Positions 54,110 through 59,225 of a stretch of DNA of 64,000 nucleotides are shown in pieces (the stretch's first letter is position 1; the number at the start of each line of letters is the position of its first letter). The translations under genes and the position numbers were made by a program. The notes under the pieces were generated by a model, which was not told the origin of the DNA, searched no databases, and saw nothing but the letters and a program-made list of their open reading frames with translations. The DNA is from Candidatus Methylacidithermus pantelleriae (GTDB lineage Bacteria; Verrucomicrobiota; Verrucomicrobiia; Methylacidiphilales; Methylacidiphilaceae): NCBI RefSeq assembly GCF_905250085.1, contig NZ_CAJNOB010000034.1, positions 62,001 to 126,000 of the forward strand, read 5' to 3'.

Positions 54110-54658
54110 GTGAAGACAGAGGAGCTTCTCGGTACCTCAGCGCTAGGGATTTTTGCGGTCGCTATTCTGCTCCTGACGGGAACGCTTCTTTACAGAGAAT
54201 ATCGAGAGGACCAAAAAGAAAAAGCCAAGGCAGAATTTGCAGTTGCACTGGACCGGATCATTTCGTCAGCACCCGGAAGCGAGGCCCAGAGGCGGTTAGG
54301 GGAGCGAATCCGAAGCATTTTGGCTGATCCCCAAAAGCTCACGGAAAAGTCGGTCGACGAACTTCGTTCGGTCGGTCAGGAGGCCAAAAAATTGGCCAAC
54401 CAGCTTCGTTCCGCCTTGCGGGAAGCCGAATCGGCGAAGGAGGAGATTGCACGCCGTCGAAAAGTGGCTTCTCCCGATGAGGTGGTGACTTTTTTCCAGG
54501 CGGGCCGCATGGGGGAACTTTCCCGTAGAGCGGTTGCCTTTGACCAAATGGCCCATCAGATTGACGAGAGTCTTATCCCAATGGTGGAGGAGGCAATCGC
54601 GTCGGCAAAACAGCAATCCGAAAAGCCTCAGGAGAGGGGTCGCTCGGTTAAGAGATAG
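54110..54658 (+). CDS. membrane-anchored helical protein, short paralogue of the Trp-rich protein
   Basis: A 182-residue product from GTG 54110. One N-terminal membrane helix (LGIFAVAILLLTGTLLY, about residues 11-27) is followed by a charged, helical domain likely to form a coiled coil (KEKAKAEFAVALDRII, ADPQKLTEKSVDELRSV, REAESAKEEIARRRKV). The helical domain aligns throughout with residues 30-150 of the next protein (shared: AKAEF...DR...AP, ADPxKxTxxxVxEL, AKExIARR, DExVxxxQ). No family is recognised. The two genes are 116 bases apart and arose by tandem duplication. Confidence 0.65.
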   Translation: MKTEELLGTSALGIFAVAILLLTGTLLYREYREDQKEKAKAEFAVALDRIISSAPGSEAQRRLGERIRSILADPQKLTEKSVDELRSVGQEAKKLANQLRSALREAESAKEEIARRRKVASPDEVVTFFQAGRMGELSRRAVAFDQMAHQIDESLIPMVEEAIASAKQQSEKPQERGRSVKR

Positions 54659-54774
54659 CATATCGCAAAAAGGAATCAGAGAGGATATCGGGAAAAGGAA
54701 TCAGAGGGGAGTCGATTCGACAGGAGAAAGAGCAGGCGTTAGATTATGTTCAAGAACCTGGAACGGTGGCGACA

Positions 54775-56709
54775 ATGAAAACGATGCGTTTGAGTCTCCT
54801 ACTAGGGGCAGCGGCGGCTTTGGCGGCTATTCCGACAGGAGTTGCTGTGTACCAGACTTACCAGGGTCACCAGCGAGAAGTAGCCAAGGCGGAGTTTTCG
54901 CGCACGTTCGATCGTTTGCTTGCCAAGGCTCCCCGGCGCGAGGATCTAAACCAACTGTCCGAACAACTACGAGCGCTTATGGCAGATCCGGCGAAGATCA
55001 CGCAATCCACTGTAGGGGAGCTAGAGCAACTGGCGAGCCGTGCAGCGGACAACGCAAGGCAGGCGCAAGAAGTGGTTCGGCAAATCGAGCAAGCCAAGGA
55101 AGACATTGCTCGCCGGTATCATTTAGTGGCCTCCGATGAACTTGTGAGCTATTTACAGACACAAAGGATCCAAGAGATCCAGCGGTTAGGAGATGCTTTC
55201 GAACGCTTCGCTAGTGATGTCCGGAACCAGTGGATTCCCCTTGCCCAGAATGCCTTGGCCAACCCGCCTCAAGGGCAAACGGTTTCAGAAGGTGTAACGT
55301 CGGGGCAGGTTCCAGGCGGGTCTCAGCCCTCTGGGGTAGCGCGCTCCCTGGGGGGGTCCCATAGTTACGTGCGGAGATACGGGTATGCCGCAGCCGGGTC
55401 CGGTTATCCGGACGAGTATGGTTATCTAGCAAGTGGTTCGACTTACGTCGGCAACTACGCCGATTTTGCGACGGGACCGATCTACGCCGATTACTACGAC
55501 TACGATTACGACGACGCATATGATTATGGCGATCTCGATTACGACTGGGATTACGGGTACAGCTATGCCTATGCCCCCACGGTTGCTATTGGCCTCTGGC
55601 CATGGTGGTGGAGTTGGTGGCCTTGGTGGGGCTGGGGGTGGTGGCCCGGCTGGGGCGTCGGGATCGGTTGGTGGTCCCCAGGTATTAGCATTTCCTTTGG
55701 ATGGGGTTTTCCTTGGGTCGGTTGGGGAGGCTGGTGGAGTCCGTTTTGGTGCTGGAGACCTTGGTGGTGTGGTCCCTCCTGGTGGGGATGGAATGGATGG
55801 TGGGGAGGGAACCGGTGGTGGGGATGGAATGGGGATCCTCCTGGTGGTCGATGGTTTGGCTGGGGCAATCGGTGGGGAAATTTCTGGGCGAACCGGTGGG
55901 GAAATTTCGGAAACATGGCCCGCTGGAACCAGTTGGGCGGGGCGACTAACATCGCAAACTTTAATCGGATGACTCCCTGGAACCGGTTTCAAGCCTTAGG
56001 CAACCGGGGGTTTGTGGGCAATGGTCTGGGGAATCGTTTTTCGGCTTTGTCCGGCGCGCAGGATCCTTCCCGAAACTTGGCAGGGCTCAATGGGCGATTG
56101 GGTAATGAGATCGGACAGCGGTCGACAGTTCTTTCCGGAGGAAATCGAGGATTCTCCTCGAGTCTCCCAGCTTCCCGGGGCTTCCAGTTTGAGCGTGCCC
56201 CGCAAAACCGTTTTGGGAATGTGAACCCAAGGGGAGGAGCAAACTTGGGCAGGGGCGGTTTTCGGTTCAGCCAGCCACCGAGCAGGTCCTTCGGAGGAGC
56301 CTCTGCGGGTAGAACATTTCAGCCGGCAAGAGGGATGAGTGCCTTTCGGTTCTCCCCTCCTCGGAGCTCGGCTGGTTTGTCGCGCGCTCAAACGTTGCGA
56401 CAGTTTTCCGGAGGTAGGTCGCGCTTCTGGAGTGGAGGAGTTCATTCCTTTGGTGGAGCCAGATCCTGGGGCACGTCTAGGAGCTTCGGGGGCTTTCGTG
56501 GGATTTCTCCGGTGGGTCGTGGGGGATGGGGAGGCGGCTGGAGACCGAGCCATGGGGGCTTTCGGTCCTTTGGAGGTATGGGTGGTTTTCGAGGCGGTGC
56601 TTTCCGTGGATTTGGAGGGGGATTCCGTGGTGGCGCTTTTCACGGAGGAGGTTTCCGGGGAGGAGGGTTTCACGGGGGAGGCTTCCGCGGAGGGGGTTTC
56701 CATCGCTAA
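54775..56709 (+). CDS. membrane-anchored protein with Tyr/Asp, Trp-rich and Gly/Arg/Phe-rich low-complexity tail
   Basis: About 644 residues from ATG 54775 (a GTG lies at 54766). An N-terminal membrane helix (LLLGAAAALAAIPTGVAVY) leads into a helical domain (residues about 30-150) shared with the upstream gene. Then follow a Gly/Ser/Tyr stretch; a Tyr/Asp tract (residues about 236-268, for example DYYDYDYDDAYDYG); a block of about 120 residues (272-392) with about 37 Trp, mostly in WW and WGW groups with Gly, Pro and Asn; a Gly/Asn/Arg/Phe segment; and a tail of FRGGGFHGGG-like repeats (residues about 580-644). I know no family with this set. Aromatic and Gly/Arg tracts of this kind favour self-association or surface adhesion, which is inference. 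A terminator follows. Confidence 0.7.
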   Translation: MKTMRLSLLLGAAAALAAIPTGVAVYQTYQGHQREVAKAEFSRTFDRLLAKAPRREDLNQLSEQLRALMADPAKITQSTVGELEQLASRAADNARQAQEVVRQIEQAKEDIARRYHLVASDELVSYLQTQRIQEIQRLGDAFERFASDVRNQWIPLAQNALANPPQGQTVSEGVTSGQVPGGSQPSGVARSLGGSHSYVRRYGYAAAGSGYPDEYGYLASGSTYVGNYADFATGPIYADYYDYDYDDAYDYGDLDYDWDYGYSYAYAPTVAIGLWPWWWSWWPWWGWGWWPGWGVGIGWWSPGISISFGWGFPWVGWGGWWSPFWCWRPWWCGPSWWGWNGWWGGNRWWGWNGDPPGGRWFGWGNRWGNFWANRWGNFGNMARWNQLGGATNIANFNRMTPWNRFQALGNRGFVGNGLGNRFSALSGAQDPSRNLAGLNGRLGNEIGQRSTVLSGGNRGFSSSLPASRGFQFERAPQNRFGNVNPRGGANLGRGGFRFSQPPSRSFGGASAGRTFQPARGMSAFRFSPPRSSAGLSRAQTLRQFSGGRSRFWSGGVHSFGGARSWGTSRSFGGFRGISPVGRGGWGGGWRPSHGGFRSFGGMGGFRGGAFRGFGGGFRGGAFHGGGFRGGGFHGGGFRGGGFHR

Positions 56710-56719
56710 TCGTCCTTTT

Positions 56720-56742
56720 GGCGAGGCTCTCGCCGGTTTTTC
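56720..56742 (+). terminator. intrinsic terminator after the Trp-rich gene
   Basis: GGCGAG (56720-56725) and CTCGCC (56729-56734) pair across a 3-base loop, followed by GG and six T residues. It lies 10 bases after the stop codon and supports the gene's reality. Confidence 0.75.
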
Positions 56743-57826: not shown

Positions 57827-58614
57827 AGTTGTGTCGAATCCAGGCGCTTCTCCTGCGGTATCTTTTCGTTTACCGCAACCCCCTCCGCAGTCTGGAGGCC
57901 TTTTTCTGGCCGGTCATGGACCTCTTGGTGTGGGGTTTTGTCACCCACTACCTAGAAAGTGCCCACCGAACCCTGCCTGCCGGGATCACGTTTCTCATCG
58001 GAGCCATGATCTTTTGGGACATCCTTTACCGCTCTCAGCAAGGGTTAACCCTAGCCTTTCTCGAGGATGTGTGGTCTCGTAACGTGTTAAACCTTTTTTC
58101 TTCTCCCCTTCATCTCCGGGAATTTTTAGCGGCTACCTACTTGGCTGGTTTGCTCAAAACGACCGTGATCGCGGTCCTTTTGACGCTGTTGGCGTACAGT
58201 CTATGGGGGTTTAACCTCTGGGCCATCGGAACCCGGTTAGCTCCTCTCACGGGCAACCTCATCCTTATGGGATGGAGCTTGGGTATGTTGACCACAGGAT
58301 TAATCCTTCGCTGGGGCCAAGCCGCCGAGGCATTGGCCTGGGCCGTTCCTTTTTTCATTCAACCCTTTGCTGCGGTGTTCTATCCCTTGGCGGTCCTTCC
58401 TAGCTGGGTGAGAAGGTTTGCCTGGTTCATCCCGGCCACCCACGTTTTTGAGGGCCTTCGAGAGGTACTGTCGTCCGGGCAGCTTTCGTGGAATCATCTC
58501 CTTTGGGCGAGCGGTCTTAATGCGATCTATCTGCTTTTAGCAGGAGTGTGTTTTTACCGGTTGTACACTTCGGCGCGAGTACGCGGGCTATTAACGAAGC
58601 TAGGCACTCATTGA
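57823..58614 (+). CDS. ABC-2 type exporter, permease protein
   Basis: A 263-residue membrane protein with about six helices, the ABC-2 permease layout. The conserved C-terminal region PFAAVFYPLAVLPSWVRRFAWFIPATHVFEGLREVL contains the amphipathic ABC-2 signature (YPxxxLP...P.TH..E..R). It pairs with the ATPase immediately upstream. Its last seven bases overlap the convergent DUF2939 gene. Confidence 0.9.
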   Translation: MKLCRIQALLLRYLFVYRNPLRSLEAFFWPVMDLLVWGFVTHYLESAHRTLPAGITFLIGAMIFWDILYRSQQGLTLAFLEDVWSRNVLNLFSSPLHLREFLAATYLAGLLKTTVIAVLLTLLAYSLWGFNLWAIGTRLAPLTGNLILMGWSLGMLTTGLILRWGQAAEALAWAVPFFIQPFAAVFYPLAVLPSWVRRFAWFIPATHVFEGLREVLSSGQLSWNHLLWASGLNAIYLLLAGVCFYRLYTSARVRGLLTKLGTH

Positions 58615-59225
58615 AGGGGCTTGGGGTTGTCTTTAAGCGTGGAAGATCGAAACTCGATACGCACGAGCCTCCAGCCCGTCCATCTCCATTGAAACCATAG
58701 CCGGAGATTGGACTCGTCCACCCGAAAAGCTCCCCACCGTGGGAAGGAGAAACGCCAGGGATGTCCTCTTTGCTTATCGCCGAGAGGGTTGTCCTTTTGC
58801 CAGGAAGGATGAGGCAATCGAAAAAGTGGTTCCTCGTTTCCCTCCTTTTGCTTTAAAAGTTCGGCAAGAGTCGTAGGGGTCACAAGGAAATCCACCAAGG
58901 GATCGACGAGAGCTACCCCTAGTTTTCCGGCCAGTGCCTGGAAAAGTTGCTCCCAAGGGTCTTCTTCCTCCGGTTGCCCAGGCGGAGGATTGCGCAGGAT
59001 CCGGGCCTTAAGTTCCTGTTTGAGCGAAGCCCGTAGGCTCGCGAAATCGACCAGTTTTTCCAAGCTTACGGCATCCCCTTCCTTAACCGCGCGCCGGAGA
59101 GCCTCGTACGCGAAGAAGGGAGAAAGAAAGTACCAGAGGGCAAAAGCCAATAAACCCAGACTTGCAAGCGCCCCTACCTTTTTCACCTTTTCGACTCCCT
59201 TGCCGAGCTCTTGCGCGGGGCACAA
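58608..59225 (-). CDS. DUF2939-type membrane-anchored protein
   Basis: Up to 205 residues; the first 10-15 may not be translated. One N-terminal helix (VGALASLGLLAFALWYFLSPFFAYEAL) is followed by RRAVKEGDAVSLEKLVDFASLRASLKQEL, the DUF2939 pattern, and a beta-rich end with several Trp (RLWFQWRWTGWRLVRIEF). The family is of unknown function and is probably exposed to the periplasm. It is convergent with the ABC permease. Confidence 0.72.
   Translation of the reverse strand: MCPAQELGKGVEKVKKVGALASLGLLAFALWYFLSPFFAYEALRRAVKEGDAVSLEKLVDFASLRASLKQELKARILRNPPPGQPEEEDPWEQLFQALAGKLGVALVDPLVDFLVTPTTLAELLKQKEGNEEPLFRLPHPSWQKDNPLGDKQRGHPWRFSFPRWGAFRVDESNLRLWFQWRWTGWRLVRIEFRSSTLKDNPKPLQ

Follow-up and report, generated by a model that had tools for sequence, protein, structure and literature searches.

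Thermoacidophilic methanotrophs encode a family of membrane-anchored proteins, with Trp/Gly-rich tails, that had not been named before. It is represented by two adjacent genes in a 64,000-nucleotide stretch (the window) of Candidatus Methylacidithermus pantelleriae DNA. The domain plan is well supported and is conserved across three genera in two groups of orthologues; the function is one that we infer. The source genome consists of 71 contigs and 2,459,655 bases, and the published metagenome-assembled genome of Ca. Methylacidithermus pantelleriae PQ17 has 71 contigs, the largest of 401,379 bp (PMC8170126).

Both genes are open reading frames on the forward strand. The first (54110..54658, GTG start) encodes a 182-amino-acid protein with a membrane helix predicted by hydropathy scan (LLGTSALGIFAVAILLLTG, 54125..54181) and a helical domain, without a tail. 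The second (54775..56709) encodes 644 amino acids from an ATG located by alignment of the paralogues, three codons inside the GTG at 54766 where the listed reading frame begins. We adopted the starts at 54110 and 54775 because an MKT start is common to three local paralogues. In the long protein, a predicted membrane helix with positive charge on its N-terminal side (54793..54849; N-in by hydropathy and charge) leads into a helical domain of three long helices plus short ones (54850..55278), modeled with AlphaFold2 from alignment A1. There follow a Tyr/Asp-rich tract (55381..55584; 28% Tyr, 18% Asp), a Trp/Gly block (55585..55980), whose relative in Methylacidiphilum is under purifying selection, and a cationic Gly/Arg/Phe/Ser tail (55981..56706) ending in GGFHGGGFRGGGFHR. 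There are 44 Trp in the long protein, 37 of them in the densest 120 residues (55540-55899), in agreement with the earlier count, and the C-terminal part is 32% Gly, 14% Phe, and 14% Arg. Its GGGFHR C-terminus recurs in a third local copy and in Methylacidiphilum orthologues. The N-domains of the short and long proteins share 36% identity over 168 amino acids (E 2e-34), so a sequence-only reading that saw tandem paralogues with a common helix and helical domain, one of them extended by tract, block, and tail, was correct on both counts. In the same window, downstream of the pair and beside ABC transporter genes, lies a gene for a DUF2939 protein (58608-59225, reverse strand, E 8e-23).

The sequence-only reading also took a terminator after the long gene as support for a real gene. 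The hairpin itself is present (56718..56736, forward strand), 8 bases past the stop, with 8 pairs followed by TTTTT. It is only a pattern match, from a scan that found 5 terminator-like sites where 6.2 were expected in shuffled sequence (no excess). No Rfam families were found in the region of the pair. Low complexity and several overlapping reading frames on both strands are what would be expected if the long frame were a spurious product of TGG/GGC-rich repeats, but we consider this extremely improbable. The selection test in orthologues contradicts it, since dN/dS stays far under 1 throughout the block; the plan is conserved in five other genomes; and the codon-position G+C of the N-domain is like that of mutS and the ABC gene. 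The earlier inference of a real gene is supported.

The five other genomes belong to Methylacidiphilum, a genus name that we took from one member, Methylacidiphilum sp. Yel (G003), which was also the only match in a peptide-pattern scan of genome contigs. Each of the five encodes one orthologue with the same plan (group 1). These orthologues are 441-448 amino acids long, contain 17-19 Trp, and end in GGGGFHR. Homology of the N-domain to these proteins reaches E 5e-20 for the short protein and 2e-22 for the long one. The group 1 Trp/Gly block and the FHGGG tail ending in FHR are present in the long gene and in the third copy; the short gene is without them. The third copy appears to be in two pieces: an N-domain, Tyr/Asp tract, and start of a Trp block that runs off a contig end (G000:C2:1-833, reverse strand) and a matching tail at a contig start (G000:C16:2-508, forward strand). 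Most likely, these are one gene, with the assembly broken at the repetitive Trp block. Among the genomes searched, we found the tandem arrangement and a paralogue without a tail in this one alone, and Methylacidiphilum has a single full-length gene, which argues against the pair as a conserved unit. Nor does the family extend across the Verrucomicrobia: the group 1 profile (A1) found no true relative outside the Methylacidiphilaceae among 286 genomes of the class, and we rejected weak matches in G157, G112, and G144, which are flagellar-hook-protein-like and AraC-like. A SolV lipoprotein (WP_009060351; PMC10260701) is likewise a different protein, of 139 amino acids.

A search for the group 1 C-terminus uncovered a second group of proteins with the same plan, in all five Methylacidiphilum genomes and in six of seven genomes of a genus that we take, from its family membership, to be Methylacidimicrobium. 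The seventh genome is 83% complete. Like group 1, these proteins have a membrane helix, a three-helix domain, and a Trp/Gly block, and their predicted helices come in the same order, down to a short one at SDEL/SDLF. Their tails are Gly/His rich and end in FHR, GHR, or FHH, and those of both genera contain a VHPQHL motif. By hhalign, the likeness of the N-domains of the two groups is only suggestive (p 0.0035). With the membrane helix left out, the profiles score 19.38, which none of 199 column shuffles reached, although the best came to 19.37. Homology of groups 1 and 2 is therefore likely, not proven. As for group 1, a search of the 286 genomes gave no true relative outside the Methylacidiphilaceae; profile A3 had weak matches in G078, G160, and G219 (E 0.002-0.01). 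Group 2 differs from the window protein in its His-rich tail and in adjoining fdhD, which lies upstream of it at both loci scanned (one in each genus). Group 2 tails contain 32-43 His (L129, L130, L131, and Methylacidimicrobium L132-L136). This His content and the neighboring fdhD bring to mind metal or cofactor binding tied to the demands of methane oxidation. We regard this role as very unlikely for the family, given that the window protein tail has 5 His versus 41 Lys/Arg and that the pH expected in the periplasm would leave His protonated.

AlphaFold2 gave confident helical domains with the same order of elements for the N-domains of both groups (mean pLDDT 86.9 for the long paralogue, with alignment A1), and in the long paralogue the membrane helix is continuous with the first helix of the domain. 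Neither group's model had a significant structural relative. For group 2, Foldseek returned MIC60 (E 0.013) and syntaxin (E 0.04-0.2), none of them at 0.001 and thus not significant. MIC60 and syntaxin Habc are, as in group 2, membrane-anchored three-helix bundles, but they have no sequence similarity to the family, there is no Mitofilin Pfam match, and the bundle is generic. Similarly, the family had no match in Pfam or NCBIfam, and a sequence search of the PDB gave only weak matches (best E 0.037), in keeping with the suggestion that it belongs to no known family. Plasmid records held no match for the short protein, and none of the papers searched links Methylacidiphilum with Trp-rich proteins; co-mentions with "glycine-rich" concern other topics. 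In composition, the tail recalls DUF3300-type and other Gly-rich exported proteins as well as sulfur-globule proteins, which are low in complexity and rich in Gly and aromatic residues. Unlike the DUF3300-type and sulfur-globule proteins, the window protein has a membrane anchor, a helical domain, and far more Trp. The DUF3300 domain (PF11737) was not matched up to E 10 in the Pfam search. Sulfur-globule proteins are small and Gly/Tyr rich, have a cleaved signal peptide, and associate with sulfur globules; the large size, membrane anchor, and folded domain of the window protein speak against its being one of them.

In Methylacidiphilum, constraint on the protein is strongest in the Trp/Gly block. 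Methylacidiphilum infernorum V4 and M. fumariolicum SolV are published isolates, which we take to be G009 and G001, respectively; in G001, the two orthologues lie on contig C1 close to 2188000 and 1159000. Between V4 and SolV, the block is 87% identical in group 1 and 98% in group 2, versus 75% and 53% for the helical domain, at synonymous change that is high or saturated. Over four genome pairs, dN/dS for the block is 0.00-0.08 (0.04-0.08 in group 1, at most 0.03 in group 2), and columns that bear Trp are Trp in all five Methylacidiphilum at 15 of 21 positions in group 1 and 16 of 18 in group 2. We conclude from this constraint that the block is a real protein segment, selected for in both groups, as had been supposed from the cost of its Trp. 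The evidence is stronger in Methylacidiphilum than here, because the blocks of the two local copies are only 73% identical, with dN 0.20 and dS 0.66 over 33 codons. Glycine alternates significantly in the Methylacidiphilum blocks, but the window block lacks significant alternation (p 0.38). A Trp-codon DNA pattern was uninformative across the 286 genomes, where many matches were TGG/GGT repeats and a reversed control was similarly frequent. In a rival reading, the tail would be of low complexity and would condense or form a gel, with Trp, Tyr, Phe, and Arg as stickers and Gly as spacer in a periplasmic or surface matrix, the membrane helix merely localizing it. The aromatic, Arg, and Gly composition fits such a matrix, as does a diverging repeat tail beside a conserved aromatic block. 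However, the group 2 Trp block is conserved almost perfectly, residue by residue, which suggests a fit more specific than stickers alone need, and we judge a gel to be unlikely.

Recurrence of the Trp-rich tail, which had been put forward as a check, is seen in the Methylacidiphilum orthologues, in group 2, and also on proteins of another kind. Methylacidimicrobium FecR-domain (PF04773) proteins carry a similar Trp/Gly block and tail, with an NRTxI-Asn stretch and a GGFHGGG tail as in the family. Their block resembles that of Methylacidiphilum group 1 beyond composition (p <=0.0005, local-composition shuffles), and in the same kind of test the window block resembles that of V4 (p <=0.0015). 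There is weaker similarity (p 0.009 and 0.008) to the region at and after the end of DUF6600 in a FecR protein of the genome itself; between the window Trp block and DUF6600 there is none (p 0.93). By Pfam, both window proteins lack FecR (PF04773) and DUF6600 (PF20245) domains. The FecR/DUF6600 protein of this genome (G000:C30:6615-7232, L128; DUF6600 E 4.7e-23, FecR weak) has a Pro/Ser-rich tail. The N-termini of the FecR-domain tail carriers are signal-peptide-like, and Gly plus aromatic composition resembles, in general terms, sulfur-globule and cell-surface proteins, both of which would suit a tail exported past the outer membrane to act as adhesive or coating. We find this improbable: the predicted N-terminal anchor of the window protein has no obvious cleavage site and runs straight into the domain, and no secretion genes are among the neighbors examined.

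Our leading interpretation, held tentatively and at somewhat less than an even chance, is that the long protein is an inner-membrane-anchored periplasmic envelope scaffold. The charge pattern around the membrane helix is mostly N-in (the short paralogue has no charge bias), which makes the earlier placement outside the inner membrane probable, with the N-terminal helix in the cytoplasmic membrane and the rest in the periplasm. The three-helix domain would be a folded stalk, probably oligomerizing, and the Tyr/Asp tract a linker ahead of the Trp/Gly block. Per 50 residues, the calculated interface free energy is about -29 to -36 kcal/mol for the window protein and for Methylacidiphilum, a very strong affinity, and weaker for Methylacidimicrobium (-13 to -21 kcal/mol). 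The block would most likely lie on a membrane surface, with the inner leaflet of the outer membrane or the inner membrane itself as candidates, and/or pack against its own copies. Low periplasmic pH is expected in an acidophile. The nearly acid-free Arg/His/Gly tail (Methylacidiphilum group 1 tails have zero Asp or Glu) would be cationic there and would bind anionic partners in the wall or outer membrane. A YkuD L,D-transpeptidase gene is divergent from the group 1 orthologue in Methylacidiphilum (L058:4227-5171, reverse strand), identified by Pfam scan in L058 and by position plus N-terminal similarity in L055, L056, L057, and L059. YkuD enzymes cross-link the wall, so this gene, though a mere neighbor, points to the wall. 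No YkuD gene was found in the stretches examined around this genome's own loci, and group 2 adjoins fdhD; the neighbors therefore offer no single functional theme. Overall, the scaffold would serve a thermoacidophile by tethering, spacing, or stiffening its envelope. In this lineage, the short paralogue has presumably lost its tail; as a subunit without one, it may join the assembly by way of its helical domain. A bolder version, which we think has a rather small chance of being right, is that the family is a dedicated inner-membrane-tethered class and that, at low pH, its Trp/Gly blocks build an ordered aromatic layer or a condensate spanning the periplasm; the block would be a portable module also borne by FecR-domain proteins, with tail-less paralogues tuning its density.

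Low-complexity tails of bacterial envelope proteins are usually dismissed as fast-evolving filler. Here, in a family that our searches found in only one ecologically distinct methanotroph group, no part of the protein evolves more slowly than the aromatic block, despite its costly Trp. The block thus gives the question of how such segments function in an acid periplasm a defined target.
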